Of a stretch of 43,707 nucleotides of DNA, positions 782 to 41,117 are shown in pieces. The translations under genes and the position numbers were made by a program. The notes below the pieces were generated by a model. That model was given only the letters and a program-made list of their open reading frames with translations. It searched no databases and was not told the origin of the DNA. Origin of the DNA: Alistipes sp. Its GTDB lineage: Bacteria > Bacteroidota > Bacteroidia > Bacteroidales > Rikenellaceae. Each line of letters starts with the position of its first letter. Position 1 is the stretch's first letter. The stretch spans positions 1 through 43,707 of the forward strand of contig JAFVOR010000100.1 in the NCBI GenBank assembly GCA_017505725.1, in the 5' to 3' direction.

Positions 782-2155
782 ATGGAACTTCCTTTTGCAG
801 AATCTTGGCGAATCAAGATGGTTGAGCCAATCAAAAAGAGTACTCGCGAGGAGCGTGAGCAGTGGATGAAGGAGGCTGACTACAACCTCTTCCAGTTGCG
901 TTCAGAGCAGGTCTACATCGACTGCCTTACCGACTCGGGAACGGGTGCAATGAGTGACCGCCAGTGGGCAGCCGTAATGATGGGCGATGAGAGCTACGCT
1001 GGCTCGTCGTCGTTCTTCCACCTCAAGGAGACGATCAACAAGATTACAGGCTTCGAGTATGTTATTCCAACTCACCAGGGCCGTGCTGCCGAGAATGTAT
1101 TGTTCTCGCACCTTGTGAAGGCGGGCTCGATTGTGCCGGGTAACTCCCACTTCGACACTACCAAGGGACACATCGAGAGCCGCAAGGCTACTGCCCTCGA
1201 CTGCACCATCGACGAGGCTAAGGATACACAACTCGAGATACCTTTCAAGGGTAATGTCGATCCGAAGAAGTTGGAGAAGGCTTTGGCCGAGCACCACGAG
1301 AATGTGCCTTTTATCATCGTAACCATCACCAACAACACCGCAGGTGGTCAGCCTGTTTCGATGCAGAACTTGCGCGAGGTGCGTGCTATTGCCGACAAGT
1401 ATGGCAAGCGTGTAGTGCTCGACTCGGCTCGCTTTGCCGAGAATGCCTACTTCATCAAGACCCGCGAGGAGGGCTATGCCGACAAGACAATCAAGGAGAT
1501 TGCGCTCGAGATGTTCTCGTTGGCTGACGGTATGACAATGTCAGCCAAGAAGGATGGTATCGTCAATATGGGAGGCTTTATCGCAACTCGCCACGAGGAT
1601 TGGTACGAGGGTGCAAAGCGTTTCTGTATTCCATTCGAGGGCTACCTCACATACGGTGGTATGAATGGTCGTGATATGGAGGCTTTGGCTGTAGGTCTCG
1701 ACGAGAATACCGAGTTCGACAACCTCGAGACCCGTATCCATCAGGTGGAGTTCCTTGCAGGCTTGCTCGACGAGTATGGCATCCCTTATCAGCGTCCTGT
1801 GGGTGGCCACGCCATCTTCGTAGATGCCGACAAGGTGCTCACCAAGGTGCCAAAGGAGGAGTTCCCTGCACAGACTCTCGCCATCGAGCTCTACCTCGAG
1901 GCAGGTGTGCGTGGCTGCGAGATTGGCTATATCCTTGCTGACCGTGACCCTGTAACGCGCGAAAACCGTTTCGGAGGTCTCGACCTTCTCCGCCTTTGCA
2001 TCGCTCGTCGCGTCTATACCGACAACCATATGCGTGTTATCGCAGCAGCTCTCAAGAATGTCTTTGACCGTCGCAACGAGATTACTCGTGGTGTTGAGAT
2101 TGTTTGGGAGACAGAGCTTATGCGCCACTTCACTGTTAAGCTTCGCAAACTGTAA
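782..2155 (+). CDS. tnaA: Tryptophanase (L-tryptophan indole-lyase)
   Basis: A PLP-dependent beta-eliminating lyase of 457 residues, the usual family length, which splits L-tryptophan into indole, pyruvate and ammonia in the cytoplasm. The N-terminus (FAESWRIKMVEPIKK), the LTDSGTGAMSD block and the phosphate-binding THQGRAAEN segment near residue 97 are family hallmarks. The PLP lysine is the second K of SAKKD, about K257. Two positions that separate tryptophanase from tyrosine phenol-lyase point to tryptophanase: Asp in FDTTKGH (about D125, Thr in the lyase) and Ile in CEIGYILADRD (about I381, Arg in the lyase). No tnaC-like leader or TnaB permease is visible beside it. The stop codon forms the first bases of a palindromic repeat element, followed by a terminator-like hairpin. 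Confidence 0.95.
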   Translation: MELPFAESWRIKMVEPIKKSTREEREQWMKEADYNLFQLRSEQVYIDCLTDSGTGAMSDRQWAAVMMGDESYAGSSSFFHLKETINKITGFEYVIPTHQGRAAENVLFSHLVKAGSIVPGNSHFDTTKGHIESRKATALDCTIDEAKDTQLEIPFKGNVDPKKLEKALAEHHENVPFIIVTITNNTAGGQPVSMQNLREVRAIADKYGKRVVLDSARFAENAYFIKTREEGYADKTIKEIALEMFSLADGMTMSAKKDGIVNMGGFIATRHEDWYEGAKRFCIPFEGYLTYGGMNGRDMEALAVGLDENTEFDNLETRIHQVEFLAGLLDEYGIPYQRPVGGHAIFVDADKVLTKVPKEEFPAQTLAIELYLEAGVRGCEIGYILADRDPVTRENRFGGLDLLRLCIARRVYTDNHMRVIAAALKNVFDRRNEITRGVEIVWETELMRHFTVKLRKL

Positions 2156-2316
2156 AAATCATTCTGAGCGGTGAATTTTGCACTGCTCTTCGGTAAGCGA
2201 GCTCCTCACATACGCTATAGTATGCTGCGGGCTCGCTTCCTTGTTTAGCACAAAATTCCCTCACTCACCTCTGATTTTTAGGTCGTGGGGTTGTAGTCTA
2301 ATCATCGACGATTTTG
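2153..2316. repeat. Palindromic intergenic element, locus A, unit 1
   Basis: An imperfect palindrome begins on the tnaA stop codon. TAAAAATCA (2153-2161) matches TGATTTTTA (2272-2280), and GAATTTTGCAC pairs with GTGC/AAAATTC-type sequence. AAGCGAGC (2195-2202) pairs perfectly with GCTCGCTT (2231-2238), and CATAC (2209-2213) pairs with GTATG (2220-2224). The two inner helices are separated by the CTCA/CTGCG internal loop seen in the other copies. The right edge CTAATCATCGACGATTTT (2299-2316) recurs in the other units. No gene is seen in 2156-2564. Confidence 0.85.
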
Positions 2317-2324
2317 AATGAGAG

Positions 2325-2354
2325 GGAGGTTGCTTTTTGTAACCTCCTCTTTTT
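2325..2354 (+). terminator. Intrinsic terminator downstream of tnaA
   Basis: GGAGGTT (2325-2331) and AACCTCC (2341-2347) form a 7-bp stem around a T-rich loop, followed by TCTTTTT. It lies between the two palindromic units of locus A and is the likely end of the tnaA transcript. Confidence 0.65.
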
Positions 2355-2466
2355 AGTATGCTGCGCACTCGGCTCCTTGTTTGCCTTGCAACTCCCTCCT
2401 TAAAATGAATTTTTTGTAAGTTTTACTTAGGGCTAATCATTGACGATTTTGAATGAGAGGGAGGTT
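2355..2466. repeat. Palindromic intergenic element, locus A, truncated unit 2
   Basis: Only the right half of the element is present: AGTATGCTGCG is followed by a CTTGTTTGCCTTGC stretch also found in the element at 39436-39559, and by CTAATCATTGACGATTTT (2433-2450). The 34 bp at 2433-2466 match 2298-2331 with one mismatch, so the locus is a degenerate tandem dimer. Three further heptamers (AATAGCT, AATTGCT, AATAGCC) follow at 2487-2507. Confidence 0.75.
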
Positions 2467-8843: not shown

Positions 8844-8895
8844 GCCATTAGCCATTAGCTAATTTTGCATTTTGCATTTTGAATTCTGAATTTTA
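8844..8895. repeat. Heptanucleotide array between cca and pdxJ
   Basis: Seven in-phase 7-bp units (GCCATTA twice, GCTAATT, TTGCATT twice, TTGAATT, CTGAATT) run into the stop codon of pdxJ (complement of TTA at 8893-8895). They fill most of the spacer between two co-oriented genes. Confidence 0.88.
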
Positions 8896-9689: not shown

Positions 9690-10556
9690 ATGAAAATTAT
9701 ACTTTTTTCACGCAAAGGTATCGCACTCCGTGCGGAGGATATCGAGAAAATATTCTCTGCCATAGAGAATTATGGCTTCGATTATGCCATAAATCGTGAA
9801 TTTGCAGAGAGCGTGGCATTGCTCACCTCACGCACCATTGCTGCCGAGCATATCTACGATGAATCGGTCGGAAGTCAGCCCGACGATGCGGTGATGGTCT
9901 GCTATGGCGGTGATGGCACCCTGCTCGAGGGTGTGCATCGTCTCGATGGAGCCGACATCCCGGTGGTGGGTATCAATGGCGGTCATCTCGGTTTTATGGC
10001 TCTTGCGCCTCGTCAGGATATCGATGTGGTATTCGAGGGTATAGCTCGTGGTGGACTCCGCCTCGAGCAGCGCGAAATGCTCTGCGTCGAGGGGTTGTCC
10101 GATAGCCCGCTCTACGCCCTGAACGAGGTGGCTGTGCAGCGTCTTGGAGCGACGATGATTTCGATCGATGCGGAGATCGATGGCAATAGCGTTTCGACCT
10201 ATAATGGCGATGGTGTAATTATCTCAACACCAACAGGTTCGACTGCCTATTCGTTGAGTGCCGGAGGTCCTATTCTTGCGCCTTCGTGCCACTCGTTTCT
10301 GCTCACTCCGCTCGCCCCTCACAACCTCACGATGCGACCTATCGTAATGCCCGATTCGAGCGTGGTGTCGCTCCGCATTGCAACACGCAACAACGAGGCT
10401 TCGGTGTCGGTTGATAATCGCACCTTCAAGGTGGCAAACAATGCTGTTCTCACCATCCGCAAAGCCGAAAGATGTGTCCGTTTGGCAGTTCCGCACAATA
10501 AATCTTTCTTCGACTCGTTACGCAATAAGATGATGTGGGGAGTGGATGTGAGATAA
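9690..10556 (+). CDS. nadK: NAD kinase
   Basis: A 288-residue cytosolic enzyme that phosphorylates NAD to NADP. The catalytic GGDGTLL motif (about 73-79, Asp at 75), the NGGHLGF segment, the ALNEV segment and the NAD-binding GDGVIISTPTGSTAYSLSAG segment are all present in order, followed by the conserved beta-rich C-terminal domain. Length is typical. It is divergent from pdxJ and precedes the uppS-bamA block. A heptamer repeat begins directly after its TAA stop. Confidence 0.96.
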   Translation: MKIILFSRKGIALRAEDIEKIFSAIENYGFDYAINREFAESVALLTSRTIAAEHIYDESVGSQPDDAVMVCYGGDGTLLEGVHRLDGADIPVVGINGGHLGFMALAPRQDIDVVFEGIARGGLRLEQREMLCVEGLSDSPLYALNEVAVQRLGATMISIDAEIDGNSVSTYNGDGVIISTPTGSTAYSLSAGGPILAPSCHSFLLTPLAPHNLTMRPIVMPDSSVVSLRIATRNNEASVSVDNRTFKVANNAVLTIRKAERCVRLAVPHNKSFFDSLRNKMMWGVDVR

Positions 10557-10612
10557 ATGCAAAATGCAAAATGCAGAATGCAAGATGCAGAATGCAGAAT
10601 GCAAAATGCAGA
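10557..10612. repeat. Heptanucleotide array ATGCAAA/ATGCAGA x8
   Basis: Eight in-phase 7-bp units (ATGCAAA, ATGCAAA, ATGCAGA, ATGCAAG, ATGCAGA, ATGCAGA, ATGCAAA, ATGCAGA) start at the base after the nadK stop codon. This is the longest such array in the window. Confidence 0.95.
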
Positions 10613-10760
10613 ACCGACGCACGAAGCAAGAGCAGAGGGTGCTTGCAGACTATGCCGAGATGCGAAGGAGGAAAAGCCTGCGAAGCAGGGTTAATGCAAA
10701 AAGTAAAAAGCAAAATATAAAATAATATAAAATGCTGAATTCAAAATGCAGAACCGACGC
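10602..10760. repeat. 19-bp direct repeats flanking a noncoding segment
   Basis: CAAAATGCAGAACCGACGC occurs exactly at 10602-10620 and 10742-10760. Between the copies are a small hairpin (CCTGC/GCAGG around 10676-10690) and AT-rich sequence, no gene. After the second copy come an AATTC/GAATT hairpin and a perfect TATAGC-TTTA-GCTATA hairpin (10797-10812). The 332-bp nadK-uppS gap (10557-10888) holds only these elements, two heptamer arrays and the uppS promoter box. Confidence 0.8.
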
Positions 10761-10824
10761 TGCTGGCTATAATTCGGGCAGAATTCCGTTTAAAATTATA
10801 GCTTTAGCTATATAAGAGAAAAAT

Positions 10825-10859
10825 AATTTTGAATTTTGCATTCTGAATTCTGAATTTTT
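10825..10859. repeat. Heptanucleotide array abutting the uppS promoter
   Basis: Five 7-bp units (AATTTTG, AATTTTG, CATTCTG, AATTCTG, AATTTTT) end 2 bp before the -7 box TATCTTTG. The units contain TTTG, the -33 sequence of Bacteroidota promoters. Confidence 0.85.
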
Positions 10860-20111: not shown

Positions 20112-20251
20112 AAAATCGTTCTGATTCAAAATCGTTCTGATGAGCTCTTTTTGCACGAGTGCGTCGGACGCTGAAATGCTCACATAGGCTTACTATGCTG
20201 CGCTTTCATCGCCTAGCATCGCACAAAAATAGTCTCATCATTGACGATTTT
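20112..20251. repeat. Palindromic intergenic element, locus B, unit 1
   Basis: AAAATCGTTCTGAT occurs twice (20112-20125 and 20128-20141) and opens the left arm. The right arm is CTCATCATTGACGATTTT (20234-20251). Inner parts are TTTTTGCAC against GCACAAAAA, GAAA (20173-20176) against TTTC (20204-20207), and CATA (20083+100-20186) against TATG (20194-20197), with the CTCA/CTGCG loop. No gene is seen in 20047-20450; it holds the hairpin at 20072, this dimer and two TAATGGC-type heptamers (20413-20426). Confidence 0.85.
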
Positions 20252-20260
20252 TGCAGCAGG

Positions 20261-20380
20261 AAGTTCTGATGAGTTTTTTTGCACGAGTGCGTCGGACGCT
20301 GAAATGCTCACATACGCCAAGTATGCTGCGCTTTCTGCCACTGTGTAACGCGCAAAAATAGCCTAATCATCTCCGATTTT
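20261..20380. repeat. Palindromic intergenic element, locus B, unit 2
   Basis: A second, tandem unit repeats GCACGAGTGCGTCGGACGC and GCTCACATAC with GTATGCTGCGC. It ends in CTAATCATCTCCGATTTT (20363-20380). Its outer left arm is reduced to AAGTTCTGATGAG, so the pair is a head-to-tail dimer. Confidence 0.85.
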
Positions 20381-20450
20381 GAATAAGGGCAACCTCTCAA
20401 TCCTAAAAAAAACTAATGGCTAATGGCCAAGAATTTTTTTGCACTGAAAA

Positions 20451-22076: not shown

Positions 22077-25000
22077 ATGCACGAGATACTGAGGTTTGCC
22101 GAGGGCTCACCGCAGGTGGTAGAGCTCGGCAAAGTGTTGAATAAAAAAGGCGGCACCGTCCTTCTCAACGAGATGGTCGGCGGTGCCTTTTTATTTTATA
22201 TGGCTGCTACGATAGCTCGCAAGGGTGGCGTTCATATCGTCATCTGCGAGGATCGTGATGCCGCAGCATACGCCCTGAATGACCTCTATGCCCTCTTGGG
22301 TGAGGAGCGAGTGTTGTTCTTCCCATCGGCCTACAAACGCTCGGTGGTATATGGTGCCGAGGAGGCGGAGAGCGTGGTTATGCGCACAGGTGTCCTCAAT
22401 GCGCTGAAGAGCCGTCGTGAGGGCCATTTGGTGGTGGCCACATATCCCGAAGCCCTTGCCGAGCGAGTTGCCGATATGGAGGGCTTCGCCTCGGAGTCGT
22501 TCCGCATAAGACGAGGCGACACAATCGAGGTTGCCGAGCTCGAGGAGAGGGTACAGGCTCTGGGTTTCGACAAGGTCGACTTTGTCTACGAGCCCGGTCA
22601 ATACTCGGTGCGAGGAGGTATCTTCGATATCTTCTCCTACTCGGAGAGTAAACCCTATCGTTTCGACTTCTTCGACAACGAGATCGACTCGATACGCCGC
22701 TTCGAGCTCTCGAGTCAGCTCTCGAGCGACAAGCTCGACGAGGTCGATATCATCTCGAATATCAACCGCGCAGATGTAGGGCGAGTCTCGCTTGCGGAGT
22801 TTGCGGGCGGGGAAGTCTGCTATTGGGCGCAGGATCCCGAGTTCGTCTTGGGCAAGGTTGACGATATCCGCAAGAGGGCTATGCAGGATAGCACCGAGCC
22901 CGAGGAGATGGCAGAAAAACTAACCTCGCGCAAGGAGTTGCTCGAATGGATGGCCGAGTCGAATATTGTGTTGCTGCGCAATACGCTTGCCGAGCGACCT
23001 GCCTCGCAGACGATACTCTTCCACACCGCTCCGCAGAATAGCTTCAACAAGAATTTCGATGTTTTGGCCGATGAACTCGTCTCACGACACGAGATGGGCT
23101 ATCGCACACTGCTCCTATCGGAGAATAGAGCCCAAGCGGAGCGTCTTGAGGGGTTGCTCTACGCCACGGGGCGTGAGGGTGCAAAGTTCGAGATGGCACG
23201 CCTCACCCTGCATAATGGTTTCACCGACCACGATCTCAGGATTGCGCTCTATGCCGAGCATCGACTCTTCGAGAGATATCGCCGCTACAAGATAAATGGT
23301 CAGATCAAGCGTGACGAGCAGATGACCATTGCCGAGTTGAACTCGTTGCAGATGGGTGACTATGTCACCCATATCGATCACGGTGTAGGCCGCTTTGGTG
23401 GTCTGGTCAAGATTGAGGAGGGTGGCAAGATGCACGAGGCGATAAAGCTCGTCTATCGCGACGGCGATGTGCTCTTTGTCAATGTCCACTCGCTGCACCG
23501 CATTGCTCGCTACAAGAGTGGTGACGACGAGCCGCCAAAGGTGCATAAACTCGGTAGCGGAGCGTGGCAGAAGATTAAGAATGCAGCGAAGAAGGCTGTT
23601 AAGGATATCTCGCGCGAACTCATTGCACTCTATGCCAAGCGCAAGGCGAGTGAGGGCTTTGCCTTTTCGCCCGACAGCTATCTGCAACAGGCTTTGGAGG
23701 CTTCGTTCGAATGGGAGGATACGCCCGATCAGCTCAAGGCTTCGGAGGCGGTCAAGCGCGATATGGAGTCGTCGCGACCTATGGATCGCCTTATCTGCGG
23801 TGATGTAGGCTTTGGTAAGACCGAGGTTGCCATTCGTGCTGCATTCAAGGCTGCAACCGATGGCAAGCAGGTGGCGGTGCTGGTGCCTACAACGATTTTG
23901 GCACTGCAACACTACCGCTCCTTCAAGAGCCGACTGCGTGACTTCCCCGTTACGATAGAGTATCTCAACCGCACCAAGAGCGCGAAGGATACCTCACGCA
24001 TCCTCGATGAATTGCGCTCGGGTAAGATCGATATCCTGATAGGCACCCACAAGATGTTGGGCAAGGGGGTAGAGTTTAGCGACCTCGGTCTGCTCATCAT
24101 CGATGAGGAGCAACGCTTTGGTGTTGCAGCGAAGGAGAAACTTACTCAACTGCGTGTGAGTGTCGATACGCTTACGCTCACCGCAACGCCTATACCGCGC
24201 ACCCTGCAGTTCTCGCTGATGGGCTCGCGCGACTTGTCGGTCATCTCGACACCACCACCAAACCGACGACCTATACAGACCGAGTCGCACACCTTCTCGG
24301 AGGAGTTGGTCAAGGAGGTTGTCGAGGCGGAGTTGCAGAGGGATGGTCAGGTCTACTTCATCCACAACTGTGTGGAGGATCTGATGACAATCAAGGGTAT
24401 GCTGATGCGACTCTGTCCAGAGGCCCGTGTGGCGGTGGCGCACGGTCAGATGAAGCCTGTCGAGCTGGAGAAGACCATTATGGACTTTATCTACCATGAC
24501 TTCGATATCCTGGTGGCGACATCGATTGTGGAGAGTGGCGTCGATATTCCGAATGTAAACACCATAATCATCAACAATGCCGACCGCTTTGGCTTGAGTA
24601 ACCTGCATCAGTTGCGTGGTCGAGTGGGACGAAGTGACAGGAAGGCTTATTGCTATCTGCTTTCACGTCCCGACGAGATGTTGTCGAGCGATGCAAGGCG
24701 ACGCTTGCGAGCCATCGAGGAGTTCTCGGACCTCGGCTCGGGCTTCAATATTGCGATGCAGGATCTGGATATTCGTGGTGCGGGCAATCTGCTTGGAGCA
24801 GAGCAGAGTGGCTTTATTGCAAATATAGGCTTCGAGACCTATCAGAAGATTCTCAACGAGGCAATTGCGGAGTTGAGGGCCGAGGGTCTGGATGTTGCGG
24901 GCCTCAGCACCGAGGAGCAGGCGGTGGTTGAGGAGATGCGCTATGTTGACGATGTTGTGCTAGATATCTCGGTTGAGGCGGAGTTGCCGGAGTCCTATGT

Positions 25001-25391
25001 GCGTCAGCAGGCGGAGCGACTCAAGCTCTATCGCAAGATCGATGCTATGACTGATGAGCAGGCATTGCAGAGATTTGAGGCGGAGTTGGAGGACCGCTTC
25101 GGCAAGATGCCACAGGCGGCCAAGGAGCTGATGAATGCTGTGCGTCTGCGTTGGGAGGCTATGCGCCTCGGTATGGAGCGTGTCAAGGTGAAGAATGGTC
25201 TGATGATCGTTCGCTTTGTGGGCGACGAGCACTCGCCATACTATCGCAGCGAGGTCTTTATGGATATGTTGCGTAAGATTACCGCCGAGCCCGACCGCTT
25301 TGTGCTTAAGCAGAAGGATGGCAGACTACAGATGACTGTGCGTAGGGTAGAGAGCGTAGCAACTGCGGTGGAGGTGTTAAAATCGCTCTGA
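22077..25391 (+). CDS. mfd: Transcription-repair coupling factor Mfd
   Basis: A 1104-residue DNA translocase that removes stalled RNA polymerase and recruits UvrA. The N-terminal UvrB-like region has the RGGIFDIFSYSE block and the RNA-polymerase-interaction domain has the DYVTHIDHGVGRF motif. The RecG-like motor follows: Walker A GDVGFGKTE near residue 574, DEEQRFG near 675, TATPIPRTL, then HGQMKP and VGRSDRKAYCYLL. The TRCF C-terminal domain closes it. It is slightly shorter than Proteobacterial Mfd. The last codons (K-S-L-stop) lie inside the palindromic element of locus C. It is probably co-transcribed with rng. Confidence 0.96.
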   Translation: MHEILRFAEGSPQVVELGKVLNKKGGTVLLNEMVGGAFLFYMAATIARKGGVHIVICEDRDAAAYALNDLYALLGEERVLFFPSAYKRSVVYGAEEAESVVMRTGVLNALKSRREGHLVVATYPEALAERVADMEGFASESFRIRRGDTIEVAELEERVQALGFDKVDFVYEPGQYSVRGGIFDIFSYSESKPYRFDFFDNEIDSIRRFELSSQLSSDKLDEVDIISNINRADVGRVSLAEFAGGEVCYWAQDPEFVLGKVDDIRKRAMQDSTEPEEMAEKLTSRKELLEWMAESNIVLLRNTLAERPASQTILFHTAPQNSFNKNFDVLADELVSRHEMGYRTLLLSENRAQAERLEGLLYATGREGAKFEMARLTLHNGFTDHDLRIALYAEHRLFERYRRYKINGQIKRDEQMTIAELNSLQMGDYVTHIDHGVGRFGGLVKIEEGGKMHEAIKLVYRDGDVLFVNVHSLHRIARYKSGDDEPPKVHKLGSGAWQKIKNAAKKAVKDISRELIALYAKRKASEGFAFSPDSYLQQALEASFEWEDTPDQLKASEAVKRDMESSRPMDRLICGDVGFGKTEVAIRAAFKAATDGKQVAVLVPTTILALQHYRSFKSRLRDFPVTIEYLNRTKSAKDTSRILDELRSGKIDILIGTHKMLGKGVEFSDLGLLIIDEEQRFGVAAKEKLTQLRVSVDTLTLTATPIPRTLQFSLMGSRDLSVISTPPPNRRPIQTESHTFSEELVKEVVEAELQRDGQVYFIHNCVEDLMTIKGMLMRLCPEARVAVAHGQMKPVELEKTIMDFIYHDFDILVATSIVESGVDIPNVNTIIINNADRFGLSNLHQLRGRVGRSDRKAYCYLLSRPDEMLSSDARRRLRAIEEFSDLGSGFNIAMQDLDIRGAGNLLGAEQSGFIANIGFETYQKILNEAIAELRAEGLDVAGLSTEEQAVVEEMRYVDDVVLDISVEAELPESYVRQQAERLKLYRKIDAMTDEQALQRFEAELEDRFGKMPQAAKELMNAVRLRWEAMRLGMERVKVKNGLMIVRFVGDEHSPYYRSEVFMDMLRKITAEPDRFVLKQKDGRLQMTVRRVESVATAVEVLKSL

Positions 25392-25453
25392 TGAGTTCTT
25401 TTTGCACGAGTGCGGCGGACGCCAAATTTCTCACATAGGTCTACTATTTTTTT
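25379..25453. repeat. Palindromic intergenic element, locus C (left half only)
   Basis: AAAATCGCTCTGATGAG then TTTTTGCACGAGTGC and CTCACATA match the left half of the locus B units. The copy ends at the apical hairpin and runs into TATTTTTTT. The mfd stop TGA (25389-25391) lies inside the element. ATAG-GTCTA-CTAT plus the T-run could act as a weak terminator. Confidence 0.75.
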
Positions 25454-25474
25454 GGTAGAACAAAAGAAAAGAAT

Positions 25475-25509
25475 AATTCTGCATTTTGAATTTTGCATTT
25501 TGCATTTTA
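25475..25509. repeat. Heptanucleotide array before coaX
   Basis: Five 7-bp units (AATTCTG, CATTTTG, AATTTTG, CATTTTG, CATTTTA) end 6 bp before the coaX ATG. They use the same unit set as the arrays at 8844-8895 and 10825-10859. Confidence 0.88.
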
Positions 25510-25515
25510 GAATTT

Positions 25516-26253
25516 ATGGCAAATTTAATCGTAGACGAGGGCAATACACTCTGCAAGATAGGCGTTTTAGAAGCAAACGAGCTTCTTTGCGAGAGCTCGG
25601 CCAAGGAGTTCGATATGGCGGTGGTGGAGCAGATTATGTTGCAACATCAGATTGATGGTGCAATTGTAGCTTCGACCCGAGGCGGAGCAGAGAATATCTG
25701 CGAAAAACTGCGCTCGAGAATTGGGAGAGTGTTGCACTTTACCTCGCTTACGGAGGTGCCCATCGGTATCGACTACTCGTCGCGCCAAACGCTTGGTACA
25801 GACCGTATTGCTGTGGCTGTTGGTGTGGTCTGCGGGATGGGCATCGAGGATGCCCTCATTGTCGATATGGGCAGTGCCATAACCTTCGATTCGGTCGAGG
25901 GTGGCATATTCCGCGGAGGCAATATTTCGCCGGGTGTGGCGATGCGTTTCAGGGCGTTGCACGAGTTTACAGCCAAGTTGCCCCTTTGCCAAAAGAGGGA
26001 GGTTGCCGAGGCGTTTGGTAGCACGACTGTCGAAGCTATCGAGCAGGGTGTGATGCAGGGCGTTTTGCACGAAATTAAGGGTTATGTCGAGCAGGTTTCG
26101 AAGAAAAATTGTAAAAAAAACATAATTTTTTGCGGTGGCGATGCCGAAAGTTTTGTTAATCGAATTAAAAATGCGATATTTGCACCTCGTAAACTTATGT
26201 TTACGGGATTGAATACTATTTTGGAGTACAATGTTTCGAAAGGCAATATATAA
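25516..26253 (+). CDS. coaX: Type III pantothenate kinase
   Basis: A 245-residue enzyme for the first step of coenzyme A synthesis, an ASKHA-fold kinase needing a monovalent cation. Motifs: phosphate-binding VDEGNTLCKIG at the N-terminus, YSSRQTLGTDRIAVAVG with the Asp used as catalytic base, VDMGSAITFDSV, and GGNISPGVAMRFRAL. The frame is open further upstream, but that stretch is made of the heptamer repeat, so the ATG at 25516 (MANLIVDEGNT) is the likely start. The downstream outer-membrane gene overlaps its end by 23 bp, indicating an operon. Confidence 0.93.
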   Translation: MANLIVDEGNTLCKIGVLEANELLCESSAKEFDMAVVEQIMLQHQIDGAIVASTRGGAENICEKLRSRIGRVLHFTSLTEVPIGIDYSSRQTLGTDRIAVAVGVVCGMGIEDALIVDMGSAITFDSVEGGIFRGGNISPGVAMRFRALHEFTAKLPLCQKREVAEAFGSTTVEAIEQGVMQGVLHEIKGYVEQVSKKNCKKNIIFCGGDAESFVNRIKNAIFAPRKLMFTGLNTILEYNVSKGNI

Positions 26254-31301: not shown

Positions 31302-33314
31302 ATGATGAGTTTGAATACTTTAAGAACCCAATTCGGCGTGTTGCTCTCGATTGTTATCGGTGGCGCGCTTTTGGCATTCATCTTCTCGTTGAAGAATGAT
31401 GTTGGCTTCTCGGGCAACGATCCTGAGGTGGGCCAGGTTGATGGAAAAGAGGTTAACTACTCGGAGTTCAGCAAGGCTTACGAGGATGTTAGAACTTTGT
31501 ATGGTGGCAACGATGCCGGTTATGATCAGTCGGCACAGTTCGTATCGCAGGCTTGGCAGTCGATCTTGGCTGACCGCGTACTCGTACCTGCATACGCGGA
31601 CCTCGGCTTGACAGTTACCGAGGCGGAGCACGCTGATATGAAGTTGGGCAAGATTCCTTCGGGCATCTACTCGACACTCTTTACCGATCCTGCAACAGGC
31701 GCTTACAGCATCGAGAGTGTTAACGCATTTATCGATCAGGCAAAGGCTAACCCGGAGATGTTGAATGTGTGGAAGCTTATCAGCAAGCAGGCTCGTCTCG
31801 AGCGCGTGTCGGAGAAGTATATGACTCTCCTTCGCAATGGTGTCTATGCCAACGCTCTCGACGTGCAGAAGGGTCTTGTTGGTGCAAACAATACCTACAA
31901 GGGTCGTTTCGTGGTTTGCAACTACTCGTCGATTGCCGACTCGTTGGTTGTTGTTTCGGACAGCGAGATTAAGAAGTACTACAAGGAGAATATCGCAAAG
32001 TACAAGCAGGCTCCATACCGCACCATAAGCTATGTTCAGTTCGATGTTGAGCCAACCGAGGCTGACGAGAACGCGGCTAAGGAGAGTGCAGCGTTGTTGA
32101 CCAGCAAGTTGTCGACAAACACCAATTTGACCGATCTTGCTCGTGAGCAGGTCTATGTTTCGATTGCCAATAGCTATGTTGAGGCAGCATCGCTCGAGGA
32201 GGATGAGGCTCGCGCACTCCGTCAGAATCGTACCTATGGTCCTGAGTTGCAGGCTGATGAGTGGTACGCTTCGCGTTTGGTCGAGAAGGTTAAAGCACCA
32301 AAGAGCATTAGCTTGCAGGGCTTTGCAGTACCTATGCAGGAGGTTGCCTCGGTAGATCAGCTCTTTGCTGATGCTCGAGCAGCAGAGGACTTCTTGGCAT
32401 TTGCAAAGGAGCACAAAGGTGACGATATGGGCGAGGTTGAGTTGTCGCAGTTGCCTATCGAGGTTGCCAAGTCTTTCGTAAATGCTCGTGTTGGCGAGGT
32501 GCTCAAGGTTAGCTATGGCGGTGCAATTCAGATTTTCAAGGTTACAAGTGTTGCTCCAAAGAGCCTTCACTACCGTCTTGCTACAATGGCATATCCGGTT
32601 GAGCCATCGAAGGCTACGGTTGACGCTATCTACAAGAGTGGTAGCGAGTTTGCAACCAAGGCAAATGGTTCGGTTGAGAAGTTCAAGGCTGCTGCTAACG
32701 AGGCTTCGATTATGACTTCGCAGATGAATGTTCAGCGTGGTAGTCGCAATATTCCAGGTCTTGCAAACTCGGTTGAGGTTGTTCGTTGGGCTAATGAGGC
32801 TAAGGTAGGCGATGTATCGGAGCTCTTCAAACTCGAGGATAGCTATGTTGTAGCAGTTCTCACTGCAATCAACGATGACGAGCACAAGGCTCTCGAGAGC
32901 GTTTCGTCGCAGATTAAGACCACTCTCCTTCGTGAGAAGAAGGCTGCAATGCTTCGTGAGAAGATGCAGGGCGCAACCTTGGAGGAGGTAGCTGCAGCTG
33001 CTGATGCAAAGATTGAGTCGTTTGCTGATGCAAAGGTTTCAGCAACCTATGTTCAGGGCTTGGGCATAGAGCCACGCGTAGTTGGCTCGTTTGCAACAGT
33101 AACTGCCGAGAACAAGGGCGCACTTCTCCCACTCGTTGATGGTGGTCGTGGCGTATACGCAGTTGTTGTTGACGAGGTGGTTGTTGCTGACGAGCAGACT
33201 GCTGAGGCTGAGCGTGTTCGCCTCCAGGCCGAGGAGGAGATGAAGGCTTCGCGTGCTATGTGGGCAATCCAGGAGGGTGCTGAGATTGTGGATAATACAG
33301 TTAAATACTTCTAA
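31302..33314 (+). CDS. PpiD/SurA-like periplasmic folding factor with degenerate parvulin domain
   Basis: A 670-residue protein anchored by one N-terminal transmembrane helix (about 12-30, FGVLLSIVIGGALLAFIFSL), then a SurA_N-like chaperone module (VGQVDGKEVNYSEFSKAY; ILADRVLVPAYADLGLTV). Around residues 340-425 lies a parvulin-like segment (GEVELSQLPIEVAKSF; ARVGEVLKVSYGGAIQIFKV), but the usual H-I-L active-site strand is absent. A second related unit follows (ANEAKVGDVSELFKLEDSYV). It is likely a chaperone for outer-membrane proteins that has lost isomerase activity. ATG-ATG start: 31302 is taken, 31305 is possible. The locus D repeat pair begins at its stop codon. Confidence 0.82.
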   Translation: MMSLNTLRTQFGVLLSIVIGGALLAFIFSLKNDVGFSGNDPEVGQVDGKEVNYSEFSKAYEDVRTLYGGNDAGYDQSAQFVSQAWQSILADRVLVPAYADLGLTVTEAEHADMKLGKIPSGIYSTLFTDPATGAYSIESVNAFIDQAKANPEMLNVWKLISKQARLERVSEKYMTLLRNGVYANALDVQKGLVGANNTYKGRFVVCNYSSIADSLVVVSDSEIKKYYKENIAKYKQAPYRTISYVQFDVEPTEADENAAKESAALLTSKLSTNTNLTDLAREQVYVSIANSYVEAASLEEDEARALRQNRTYGPELQADEWYASRLVEKVKAPKSISLQGFAVPMQEVASVDQLFADARAAEDFLAFAKEHKGDDMGEVELSQLPIEVAKSFVNARVGEVLKVSYGGAIQIFKVTSVAPKSLHYRLATMAYPVEPSKATVDAIYKSGSEFATKANGSVEKFKAAANEASIMTSQMNVQRGSRNIPGLANSVEVVRWANEAKVGDVSELFKLEDSYVVAVLTAINDDEHKALESVSSQIKTTLLREKKAAMLREKMQGATLEEVAAAADAKIESFADAKVSATYVQGLGIEPRVVGSFATVTAENKGALLPLVDGGRGVYAVVVDEVVVADEQTAEAERVRLQAEEEMKASRAMWAIQEGAEIVDNTVKYF

Positions 33315-33440
33315 AAAAATCGTTCTGATTGACTCTTTTTGCACAAGTCGTCGGATAGCAAAATGCTCACATACCTCATAGTATGCTCCGCTTTTGCTCC
33401 CTCGTCTTGCACAAAAACAGTCTAATCATAACAGATTTTT
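33315..33440. repeat. Palindromic intergenic element, locus D, unit 1
   Basis: This is the most complete palindrome. AAAAATC (33315-33321) matches GATTTTT (33434-33440). The arms CTGATTGACT and AGTCTAATCAT match, TTTTTGCACAAG matches CTTGCACAAAAA in palindromic fashion, AGCAAAA (33357-33363) pairs with TTTTGCT (33392-33398), and CATAC (33370-33374) pairs with GTATG (33381-33385). The loop is CTCA/CTCCG. It begins right after the stop of the PpiD-like gene. Confidence 0.9.
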
Positions 33441-33445
33441 CGATA

Positions 33446-33479
33446 CGGGAGGTTGAGCGTCTGCTCGACCTCTCTTTTT
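33446..33479 (+). terminator. Terminator hairpin between the two locus D units
   Basis: GAGGTTGAGC and GCTCGACCTC flank a GTCT loop, followed by TCTTTTTG. A strong intrinsic-terminator shape. Confidence 0.75.
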
Positions 33480-33579
33480 GCACAAGTCGTCGGATAGCAA
33501 AATGCTCACATACCACATAGTATGCTCCGCTTTTGCTCCCTCGTATTGCACAAAAATAGTCTAATCATAACAGATTTTT
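33472..33579. repeat. Palindromic intergenic element, locus D, unit 2
   Basis: This unit repeats unit 1 with a period of 139 bp and only a few substitutions (CCTCATAG to CCACATAG, CGTCTTGC to CGTATTGC). It ends in CTAATCATAACAGATTTT (33561-33578). The outer left AAAATC arm is missing. Confidence 0.9.
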
Positions 33580-38615: not shown

Positions 38616-38659
38616 TTGGTTGAGCGTGAGATGTTTGGGGCTGTGAAGCTCCGGTTTTT
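38579..38659 (+). promoter_or_regulatory. Leader fold ending in a terminator-like hairpin
   Basis: CGCTCAATC (38579-38587) can pair with GGTTGAGCG (38618-38626), spanning the Nif3 stop codon. It is followed by GGGGCT-GTGA-AGCTCC and a TTTTT tract (38637-38659). It may simply be the Nif3 terminator, or an attenuator in the leader of the next gene. Confidence 0.45.
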
Positions 38660-38690
38660 ATGTGTTTGGGAAATAACAAAATTAAGAGAT

Positions 38691-39443
38691 ATGGCTACAA
38701 AGAAAAAGACAGCAGAGGTAGATTACTCTATGCACGAGAAGATTGTTGCTCTCTATGAGTTGCAGAAAATTGACTCTCAGATTGACGAAATCAACAAGGT
38801 GAAGGGTGAGTTGCCTTTGGAGGTCGAGGATTTGGAGGATACCGTAGCGTGCCTCAATACCCGCCTCGGCAATATCAATAGAGAGATTGAGGAGCTTGCG
38901 TCGCTCACCAAGCAGCGTCAGCGCGAGATCGACGAGGCTAAGGCTCTCATCGCTCGTTACAAGGAGCAGCAGGACAATGTGCGTAACAACCGCGAGTTCG
39001 AGACTTTGGGCAAGGAGATCGAGTATCAGGAGCTCGAGATCACCCTCGCAGAGAAGCGTCTCAAGGAGTATGCTGGTGCAGTGAAGGTTAAGAAGGCTAA
39101 CCTCGAGACTACCGAGAATGAGTTTGCTGAGCGCAAGGCCGACCTCGATGTTAAGCGTCAGGAGCTCGACTCTATCGAGAGCGAGACTGCCGACGAGGTG
39201 AAGTCACTCATCGCGCAGGCCGAGGTTGCAAAGGCAAAGATCGACGAGCGTCTCCTCGCAGGTTACAATCGCATCCGCTCGAAGGTACGCAATGGTCTTG
39301 CGGTAGTTACCGTCAAGCGTGACGCTTGCTCTGGTTGCTTCAACCGCATCCCACCACAGCGTCAGGCCGACATCCGTCTTGGAAAGAAGCTTATTGTGTG
39401 CGAGTATTGTGGTCGTATACTTGTCCCAGGCGACGAAATTTAA
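38691..39443 (+). CDS. Coiled-coil zinc-ribbon protein (C4 type)
   Basis: A 250-residue cytoplasmic protein. The ATG at 38691 (MATKKKTAEVDY) is preferred; the frame is open upstream but that part covers the leader hairpins. Residues 15-190 form a long charged coiled-coil (for example LGNINREIEELASLTKQRQR and LEITLAEKRLKEYAG). The end is a four-cysteine zinc ribbon: CSGCFNRIPPQ and VCEYCGRILVPGDEI. The layout matches the HP0958/CdsZ-like family thought to act as RNA- or protein-binding chaperones. The palindromic element of locus E begins within its last codons. Confidence 0.85.
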   Translation: MATKKKTAEVDYSMHEKIVALYELQKIDSQIDEINKVKGELPLEVEDLEDTVACLNTRLGNINREIEELASLTKQRQREIDEAKALIARYKEQQDNVRNNREFETLGKEIEYQELEITLAEKRLKEYAGAVKVKKANLETTENEFAERKADLDVKRQELDSIESETADEVKSLIAQAEVAKAKIDERLLAGYNRIRSKVRNGLAVVTVKRDACSGCFNRIPPQRQADIRLGKKLIVCEYCGRILVPGDEI

Positions 39444-39559
39444 TTTTAAGCAGCGATAGCTGCGTTAAACTGCGATAATCCGCTTGCTCATTTACGTTTA
39501 GTAAACTGCGCAAGCGGATTTCTTGTTTGCCTTGCTCTTATCTACTTAAAATTAAAGTT
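39436..39559. repeat. Palindromic intergenic element, locus E (covarying variant)
   Basis: The outer arms AAATTTAATTTTAAG (39436-39450, containing the stop TAA) and CTTAAAATTAAAGTT (39545-39559) match in inverted form. AATCCGCTTG (39477-39486) pairs perfectly with CAAGCGGATT (39511-39520), and TTTAC (39491-39495) pairs with GTAAA (39501-39505). CTCA and CTGCG lie between the helices as in loci A, B and D. All helix sequences differ from the other copies while pairing is kept. Confidence 0.85.
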
Positions 39560-39825
39560 CAATTGTGGAGGGGGACTCCGAAGGTGGTCAAAGCGCAAAT
39601 TAACTAGAGGCGTTAGGGTCGTTAAGGTCGTTAGGGGTGCGCTACAAGCGCAAAGAAAAACATTAACTACCTTTACTAGCCCTTACTAGCCCTTAAAAAA
39701 GAATTTTTAATTTTTAATTTTGAATTTTTATCGCCCTTACTAATCTAGCCATATCAATTGGAGCGGAAGAATCATTTATATTCAAAATTGTAGAATTTTA
39801 ACTCCAAAAACTCCTGGAAATTTTG
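39560..39825. repeat. Noncoding gap with 9-, 10- and 7-bp tandem repeats
   Basis: Three 9-bp units lie at 39611-39637 (CGTTAGGGT, CGTTAAGGT, CGTTAGGGG), about three 10-bp units at 39671-39700 (CTTTACTAGC, CCTTACTAGC, then a decayed unit), and four 7-bp units at 39701-39728 (GAATTTT, TAATTTT, TAATTTT, GAATTTT). No coding frame is seen between 39444 and 39851. Confidence 0.85.
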
Positions 39826-39833
39826 TATATTTG
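39826..39833 (+). promoter_or_regulatory. -7 box upstream of rmuC
   Basis: TATATTTG matches TAnnTTTG, 18 bp before the rmuC ATG, predicting a leader of about 12 nt. No clear -33 TTTG. Confidence 0.5.
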
Positions 39834-39851
39834 TGAAAAATAGAAGAGACT

Positions 39852-41117
39852 ATGGAGGGAACTTTAATCATATTGGTTATTGCAGTGGTGGCACTTGTGT
39901 TGGGTGCGGTGTGTGGTTACTTGTTCTCGAGGATGCGTACAGCGGCCTCCGAAGCGTTGTTGGCGCAGAGTCGTTTCGAGCTCGAGCGCACCAAGGCGGA
40001 GCTTGGGCGTTCTCGTGAGTCTCACGCCTCATTGCAGGCCGAGAATGCCCGTCTGCTGGAGCAGTTGCGTCAGCAGGCTGAGGAGCGCAGAAACCTGCGT
40101 GCCGAGTCCGAGCGTGCATTCCGCGAGATTGCCACCTCGATTTTCGACGAGAAATCGAAGGTGATGCGCGAGAGTAATACTCTGCAGTTGGGCGAGATTC
40201 TCACCCCCTTCAAGGTCGATCTTGAGAATCTCAAGAAGACCATCCACGATTGTTATACGGGTGAGGTGAGCGAGGTGAAGTCGTTGCGTGATAGCATCAA
40301 GGACTTGGCCGATTTGAATCACACCATAGGTCGCGAGGCGAAGGAGTTGAGCCGAGCCCTGAGAGGTAACTCGAAGGTGCGAGGTGATTGGGGCGAGCTC
40401 TTTCTGCGTCAGTTGCTCGAGAAGTCGGGCCTCGAGGAGGGTGTGAACTTCACCATCCAGGCGACCAAAAACGTGGATGGCACTCAAATCAAGAGCAGTG
40501 CCGGAGGTCAGTTGCGCCCCGATGCGCTGTTCCATCTGCCCGACGGAAGATGTATCGTGGTGGATGCTAAGGTCGCTTTGCCTGCCTACACGACCTATGT
40601 GAGCGCCTCTGTCGAAGATCAACCTGCCGCGCTAAAGGAACATATCGCTGCGGTGAAACGCCATATCGATGATTTGGCAAGCAAGGAGTATCACCGAAAT
40701 GTGCAGGGTGCTGCCGACTTTGTGCTGATGTTCATACCAAACGAAGGTGCCTACCTAACCGCTATGGGTGCCGACAAGGGGTTGTGGGAGTACGCCTACG
40801 ACAAGCAGATTGTGGTGGTGAGCCCTACCCACCTTATCTCGGTGTTGAAGCTGATGTATCAGCTCTGGATACGAGACAAGCAGACCAAGAATGCTCTGAA
40901 AATTGCCGAGGATACGGGTAAGTTGTACGACAAGTTCGTAGGCTTTGTCGAAGATATGGAGAATGTGGGCAAGTCCCTCCGCAGCGCACAACAAAGCTAC
41001 GAAGGGGCCTACAACAAACTCTCCTCGGGCAAGGGTAACCTCATCACAAAGGTCGAGCAGATACGCAAACTTGGTGCCAAAACAGATAAACAGCTCAAGA
41101 TAGAGGAGGAGGCTTAA
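39852..41117 (+). CDS. rmuC: DNA recombination protein RmuC
   Basis: A 421-residue protein with one N-terminal membrane helix (about residues 4-24, LIILVIAVVALVLGAVCGYL), a coiled coil to about residue 125, and the RmuC nuclease-like domain. Signatures: GNSKVRGDWGELFLRQLLE, RPDALFHLPDGR, VVDAKVALPAY and FVLMFIPNEGAYLTA. RmuC limits inversions at short inverted repeats in E. coli and belongs to a PD-(D/E)XK-like group; the D/VDAK residues fit. Start is ATG at 39852, just after a -7 box. Convergent with dnaG, separated by a shared hairpin. Confidence 0.95.
   Translation: MEGTLIILVIAVVALVLGAVCGYLFSRMRTAASEALLAQSRFELERTKAELGRSRESHASLQAENARLLEQLRQQAEERRNLRAESERAFREIATSIFDEKSKVMRESNTLQLGEILTPFKVDLENLKKTIHDCYTGEVSEVKSLRDSIKDLADLNHTIGREAKELSRALRGNSKVRGDWGELFLRQLLEKSGLEEGVNFTIQATKNVDGTQIKSSAGGQLRPDALFHLPDGRCIVVDAKVALPAYTTYVSASVEDQPAALKEHIAAVKRHIDDLASKEYHRNVQGAADFVLMFIPNEGAYLTAMGADKGLWEYAYDKQIVVVSPTHLISVLKLMYQLWIRDKQTKNALKIAEDTGKLYDKFVGFVEDMENVGKSLRSAQQSYEGAYNKLSSGKGNLITKVEQIRKLGAKTDKQLKIEEEA

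Follow-up and report, generated by a model that had tools for sequence, protein, structure and literature searches.

ERIC has been used as a typing marker for decades, and in Yersinia the ERIC copies that touch stop codons share the orientation of the gene. YPAL, another repeat of Yersinia, inserts just after stop codons and over terminators. In the parts of the literature drawn on here, ERIC (also IRU or RU-1) is described from enterobacteria and, as a variant, from Vibrio (PMC2759123); it is reported to be cotranscribed with neighbouring genes, with an effect that depends on its orientation, and most repeats of this sort are described as having TA ends (PMC2229807). YPAL (RU-2) resembles the family described below in being intergenic, in having targets that span or adjoin a dyad symmetry and in its lack of TA ends, according to PMC2229807; as far as a comparison of descriptions goes, it differs in its length of 168 nt, its internal inverted repeats and its target duplications of 3-26 bp. 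QMITE2 of Coxiella burnetii is likewise a 3'-UTR hairpin MITE, one whose overlap with the ends of genes is 1-10 bp in the examples shown and which has direct repeats unique to each copy; unlike the present family, and again judged by description, it is 150-190 bp long, holds a GTAG REP and has direct repeats of 7-11 nt (PMC5896051, in the passages concerned). The GTAG/CGTC REPs and REPINs are also intergenic palindromes located mostly downstream of genes, the CGTC kind being without a known transposase in the pages of PMC3733652 used here. However, these REPs measure 20-40 nt, carry their tag at the end and occur mostly as head-to-head dimers (same source), whereas the CGTY of the Alistipes family lies in an internal loop.

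The window examined here, i.e., the whole stretch of 43,707 nucleotides that was analysed, comes from an Alistipes sp. assembly (GCA_017505725.1, contig JAFVOR010000100.1), and the first-pass annotation had recognized in it five loci built on one palindromic design. The repeat family is real, and it is larger than first described, with 102 exact-core copies and at least 130 found by a covariance model genome-wide. The window itself holds five full copies, a further one in which the left foot has been replaced, and two remnants, a right half and a left half (Table 1); the locus at 25379 is the left half only and does not display the full design ascribed to it. When up to three mismatches are allowed, the core pattern is found three times in the window, against a mean of 0.2 in shuffled sequence.

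Table 1. Elements of the family in the window, and the gene upstream of the element at 39437
Feature	Position	Strand	Basis and remarks
Full element directly 3' of the stop of the Beta_elim_lyase gene (782-2155)	2155..2281	+	R1 55.3 bits; z -6.8; Pfam PF01212
Remaining right half of an earlier (c)-type element, with downstream flank	2354..2466	+	Sequence; comparison with relative G005
Full element, subfamily (a), apical helix CATAG/CTATG	20128..20254	+	R1 52.7 bits; z -5.0
Second tandem copy, outer helix degraded	20267..20383 (fold tested from 20256)	+	R1 52.7 bits; z -0.7
Left-half remnant	25379..25453	+	Sequence; ORF end; Pfam
Full element directly 3' of the stop of the SurA/PPIase-like gene (31302-33314)	33316..33442	+	R1 51.7 bits; z -8.3; Pfam
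Tandem copy, left foot swapped for a terminator-like hairpin	about 33472..33579	+	Sequence; repeat D3 96% identical; R1 core match 33495-33541, 40.1 bits
Upstream gene, C4-type zinc ribbon / CT398-like protein	38616..39443	+	Pfam PF02591 E 6.2e-14; ORF; stop TAA 39441-39443
Full element, subfamily (c)	39437..39562	+	Sequence; R1 55.5 bits, E 9.9e-10; apical helix TTTAC/GTAAA

Read directly, the stretch 39436-39559 is made of an outer AT-rich palindrome, TTTAATTTTAAG/CTTAAAATTAAA, an inner helix, AATCCGCTTG/CAAGCGGATT, and an apex in which CTCA on the left and CTGCG on the right enclose TTTAC-GTTTA-GTAAA. This element was absent from the training set of R1 and gives no match to the exact-core pattern. 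Its fold (39437-39562) has an energy of -39.8 kcal/mol, where shuffled versions average -23.0 (z -5.9), and the outer helix takes in the stop TAA of the upstream gene. Four of the five full window copies have z values of -5.0 to -8.3; the fifth, tested over 20256-20383, folds no better than its shuffles (z -0.7). The apical helix had been given as CATAC/GTATG at all the other loci, which needs amending for the copy at 20179 (CATAG/CTATG), while the TTTAC/GTAAA at 39437-39562 was read correctly.

The remnants have histories of their own. At 2354-2466 a terminator-like hairpin stands in place of the left half, where the nearest relative, G005, has a whole (c)-type element, and the Mfd (TRCF) gene (22077-25391) terminates at a TGA within the 25379-25453 remnant. 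Terminator-like hairpins with T-runs, fused to the interior of an element that has lost its left half, were seen by eye three times, at 2330-2354 and 33440-33472 of the window and at one locus outside it (L013). A terminator scan of 38900-39900 found one candidate, no better than the mean of 0.9 in shuffles. In addition, AT-rich tracts of the TTTTGCATTTTGAATTTT type recur on both strands of the window, at 737-785, 8860-8894, 10556-10858, 25474-25522 and 39694-39728 (repeats D2 and D8).

How far does the family extend? The source genome of 2,364,232 bases has 102 matches to the pattern CTCACATA-N6-10-TATGCTSCG, of which 53 are forward and 49 reverse, and 0 to the reversed pattern. This exact core is present in 29 of 61 genomes: 28 of the 37 of the genus, with 1 to 102 cores each (the other 9 have 0), and 1 of the 24 from other genera of the order. 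The model R1 was built from 42 units, with Enterobacterales and one Vibrio locus excluded, and its 124 positions span whole elements of ∼125 nt; with 150 of 527 candidates scored, it gives at least 130 matches at E<=0.1 in the source genome. At E<=1, and with 150 candidates scored per genome, R1 matches number 86 in Litchfieldella, 72 in Listeria newyorkensis, 40 in Legionella PC1000, 8 in Pantoea sp. Eser (best E 0.005) and 3 in Vibrio tasmaniensis (best E 0.0007).

A pattern scan of contigs returned at least 114 stretches. Among the matches listed are Alistipes/Rikenellaceae MAGs of ruminants, together with Legionella, Coxiellaceae, Halomonadaceae, Desulfobacterales, Listeria newyorkensis, Vibrio, Pantoea and others; these taxa are a sample, and many of the records are MAGs. 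Because ∼240 chance matches to the pattern are expected in 257 Gb (our own arithmetic), pattern matches by themselves were not trusted, and kinship is judged by folding and by the model. A folding margin of more than 10 kcal/mol over the flank-shuffled mean is reached by 71% of 114 units from the contig-scan loci, by 54% of 72 units from the genome and the genus, and by 36% of 14 from viral contigs, and the remainder includes weak, perhaps chance, matches. The versions on viral contigs (L184, L185, L186, L187, L189, L190 and L193) are GC-rich hairpins, some of them bearing outer arms of the ATAATTTTGC/CAAAATTCTCTC type, reminiscent of the arms in the window copies; when R1 was run on four viral loci, L185, L187 and L189 matched at 27-33 bits and L196 gave no match at E<=0.01. 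A search of Rfam, proposed at the outset, produced no match in the window at gathering score, and among 10 loci the sole match over an element was MIR5998, at 32 bits against a cut-off of 180. Among the literature matches listed for the core string, judged by title, nothing concerned bacterial repeats, one being an unrelated Corynebacterium match.

The position of the copies relative to genes is a further trait of the family. With a simple gene caller of our own, 101 exact-core copies were placed in the source genome, of which 99 are intergenic and 2 were flagged inside a gene. The gene upstream lies on the same strand for 73 of the intergenic copies and on the opposite strand for 26; location at the 3' ends of plus-strand genes, as first stated, is thus correct for all five window loci but not for every copy in the genome. 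In 46 of the 73 same-strand copies the stop codon is found at the foot of the element, from 12 nt inside to 6 nt outside the nominal 58-nt left arm. In the other 27 it lies deeper inside (8 copies) or 49-401 nt off (19 copies, many of them second tandem copies). When copies are printed singly, many start with TAA-AAATCG or alike. As for copies that face the 3' end of an opposite gene, 0 of 40 come within 10 nt of that stop (nominal right arm of 60 nt). In a wider set that includes the Alistipes loci, a same-strand upstream stop lies 36-76 nt before CTCA in 48 of 63 cases, and 15 of 121 core sites fall within a called ORF. Sites away from stop codons, inspected by eye, have no constant TA duplication; TA occurs beside stop codons and is often absent elsewhere. 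At one locus (L391, 9980-10170) the outer palindrome extends over what seem to be the final codons of the gene before it (CAGAAAACAAATAAAAGG / CCTTTTATTTGCTTTCTG), which gives the impression that the right arm was copied from the target.

Another question is what relatives have at the same sites. For the zinc-ribbon orthologue (window 38616-39443), downstream regions were read in 19 of 29 relatives, the motif was not found in 10, and 7 further genomes were without the locus. By eye, an ordinary terminator follows the gene in 12 of the 19. A different long hairpin with the apex GGCTGTAC-N6-GTACTATCC is present in G005, G003, G035 and G017; L242 and L258 have a CTCATTTAC copy farther downstream, and in L241 a shortened hairpin is followed by a terminator. 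The hairpins with the apex GGCTGTAC-N6-GTACTATCC, whose arms are like TTGTGATAAG/CTTCTGACAA, make up a second family of long stop-codon hairpins, located at this same site in four relatives (L239, L240, L256 and L262). Over the stretches fetched for the comparison of the source genome with G005, two genes have different subfamilies at the same stop codon, one has a tandem pair in the source genome and a plain terminator in G005, and one has two copies in the source genome and one in G005. One gene has a copy in the source genome only, and at another place it is G005 alone that has one. Heads of the (a), (b) and (c) hairpins are found at the same gene in relatives. A rearrangement between the two genomes (L216 / L205 vs L392) has its breakpoint seemingly at an element.

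With regard to the fold, covarying helices around a constant CTCA/CTSCG loop had been proposed from the window copies, and they are borne out. In alignment A1, made with MAFFT and unfitted to structure, 89.0% of cells pair, compared with 67.8% after shuffling and at most 47.5% after sliding; both sides changed in 145 cells, and the covariation is 0.504 versus 0.138 shuffled and at most 0.205 slid. The apical helix covaries as well in A3 (109 matches, fitted to the model), where 99.8% of cells are paired. The apical asymmetric loop, CTCA/CTSCG below a 5-bp NNTAN helix, is conserved, and a second loop, GCGTY/CCTTG, is present nearer the base in part of the members only. Loop constancy is partly a matter of choice: the pattern search was made with the apical words, and the basal words were used as a filter, the A1 units having been picked for GCGTY-like and CCT words at set distances. 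This filter, which also required a stable fold and excluded four loci, was passed by 60 of 200 units, the chance expectation for both basal words being about one in 200; of these 60, 46 were diverse and 42 were aligned, with L057, L059, L129 and L185 dropped. The basal loop is clear in units from Litchfieldella, Listeria newyorkensis and Desulfobacterales, as it is in some of those from the genus, and it was not seen in the Legionella and Pantoea copies inspected. Units from a gammaproteobacterial MAG (L078, L081 and L132) and from another (L109) have a common inner part, CGCTGAAGGG...CCCTTGATCG, and outer arms that differ yet still pair.

The copies also have a direction. Of the contigs of the source genome that carry at least two sites, 25 of 26 are strand-uniform, as are 79 of 80 sites. 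That this orientation is the mere result of gene direction was rejected, as the observed uniformity was reached in 0 of 20,000 simulations at 62% gene agreement and in 0.2% at 90%. In eight other genomes of the genus (150 of 342 matches), uniformity holds for 27 of 33 such contigs, and neighbouring pairs agree in 49 of 59 cases. For the source genome the link with replication is drawn from contig uniformity, because replichores are not assignable there, local GC skew agreeing with the element in only 27 of 45 contigs. In the complete chromosome of Legionella PC1000, 19 of 21 copies point with the replication fork; replichore ends were set at base 1 and 2.04 Mb, and GC skew, by sampling, has a positive sign in 9 of 11 stretches before and a negative sign in all 9 after. 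Gene direction was discarded as the reason on this chromosome too, the upstream gene being on the same strand 12 times and on the opposite strand 9 times, and the sampled genes numbering 97 leading and 83 lagging. A universal lock to the fork was also rejected, given 22 concordant and 24 discordant cases in Litchfieldella (76 of 86 matches typed) and 13 to 16 in Listeria newyorkensis (50 of 72 typed).

Is the family, then, an element that already has a name? This point had been raised by the first-pass annotation, and the answer is yes in part: the family appears to belong to the ERIC kind as a distant member. The reference used was the ERIC sequence printed in PMC2759123, in the part of that article consulted. 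It has 127 nt, next to 124 positions in the model, and both are long hairpins. Its apex reads TCA-NNTAC-loop-GTANN-CTCC, with TGCGTT on the left and GCCTTG on the right, and both loops stand at spacings within 2 nt of those of the family: GCGTT precedes TCA by 26 nt (with a second GCGTT at 17 nt) and CCTTG follows CTCC by 21 nt, and the most frequent spacings in the family correspond to 24 and 19-20. ERIC differs in its apical helix, CTTAC/GTAAG, and in having TA ends. With this sequence, blastn located ERIC in 5,376 of 5,426 E. coli genomes. R1 scores ERIC at 11.8 bits (E 1) and R2 at 16.9 bits (E 0.058), a borderline result, and in two 6-kb E. coli loci the sole match of R1 and R2 is ERIC, in the correct place, strand and register. 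A motif score over the apex and both words is 40.3 for ERIC, while 90 members have a 10th percentile of 38.2 and a median of 48.9; 0 of 200,000 structure-preserving shuffles of ERIC reached its score, a test weakened by the fact that the score was devised after the likeness had been noticed. The family also shares with ERIC the orientation of stop-touching copies with the gene, as seen in the 46 of 73 same-strand copies with the stop at the foot and in the 0 of 40 lying within 10 nt of an opposite 3' end.

The element is probably a non-autonomous palindromic mobile repeat of ∼125 nt, a MITE of the ERIC kind, whose mobility today we infer. It is filed as such, and not as a REP, because a search for the Y1 transposase (PF01797), the RAYT-type gene that the first-pass annotation had proposed to look for, gave 0 of 37 genus genomes (71-99% complete, so that the gene could be missed in any one). 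The early suggestion of a REP/MITE-like repeat therefore survives in its MITE half. A REP/REPIN family mobilized by a RAYT (Y1) transposase is highly improbable, even if a palindromic repeat near gene 3' ends, with a small apical hairpin flanked by unpaired letters, would suit it, and even if the contig-uniform orientation and the fork agreement in one Legionella recall single-strand transposition: other genera of the order have PF01797 in 19 of 24 genomes, no GTAG/CGTC tag is constant at the element ends by eye, the outer ends vary, and a length of about 125 nt contrasts with the 20-40 nt that PMC3733652 gives for REPs in the portion used. Several results also weigh against an ERIC-kind MITE: ERIC is recognized by R1 and R2 at best borderline, the basal loop occurs in part of the units only, sites away from stop codons have no constant TA duplication by eye, orientation is not locked in Litchfieldella or Listeria newyorkensis, the terminator scan of 38900-39900 does no better than shuffles, and no more than 54% of the genome and genus units reach the folding margin. 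Nor is there any sign of an autonomous parent, because neither half-element probe found a half away from a full copy: the right-half probe gave 11 matches, 9 inside model matches and 2 directly beside one, and the left-half probe gave 21, 20 inside and 1 beside. Could the element be a MITE of an ordinary DDE insertion sequence (e.g., IS630-like, with a TA target), unrelated to ERIC and similar in its loops by convergence? Stop codons contain TA, and therefore a TA insertion at the stop would be harmless; in addition, the ends of some copies resemble IS termini. This origin is nonetheless quite unlikely, as both loops are common to ERIC at spacings within 2 nt, none of the 200,000 shuffles reached the motif score of ERIC, no constant TA flank is apparent by eye, and the outer ends differ among copies of one genome.

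A conserved 3'-UTR RNA, i.e., a terminator or protein-binding element under selection whose copies are vertically inherited and not mobile DNA, would account for the strong covariation, for the tight placement after the stop codon and for the ordinary terminator at the same place in relatives. It is unlikely in view of copy numbers that range from 0 to 102 between species of a single genus, the different subfamilies at the same gene, the patchy spread over phyla and the 26 of 99 copies with an opposite-strand upstream gene. The covariation had been taken to indicate selection on a folded RNA or single-stranded DNA. Covariation between copies is real, but it is no proof of RNA selection by itself, because different hairpin heads occupy the same place in relatives. 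Possibly, though less likely than not, it arose from DNA processes, namely the exchange of hairpin heads or the correction of imperfect palindromes by template switching, and such an origin is compatible with an ERIC-kind MITE. It would fit the (a), (b) and (c) heads at one gene, as well as the inner parts that are alike while outer palindromes differ within one genome (L078 and L081; L109 of a relative). However, correction would erase the mismatched loops too, yet the loops are the best conserved parts over several phyla.

If the element is an ERIC-kind MITE, copies would insert at new sites, with a preference for places where a stop codon is already followed by a hairpin or terminator, and an inserted copy would come to form the 3' end of the mRNA. 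Once folded, this RNA may serve as a terminator or as a processing or stability hairpin, as reported for ERIC and YPAL. Within the Alistipes genus, insertion is probably tied to the replication fork, where the hairpin strand would be single-stranded on the lagging-strand template. The mobilizing enzyme would probably be one other than Y1/RAYT, none of these being found in the genus assemblies.

More tentatively, ERIC might represent a single branch within an ancient superfamily of hairpin elements, with members in Bacteroidota, Pseudomonadota, Desulfobacterota, Bacillota and perhaps phages, some lineages of which would move as single-stranded DNA at the fork and swap heads at existing 3'-end hairpins by means of a non-Y1 recombinase. 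A superfamily that spans several phyla and has a common loop signature, together with a model able to detect it and lineages that follow the fork, would make the movement and origin of ERIC testable. In gut Rikenellaceae, a share of the transcript 3' ends may be made by a mobile element.
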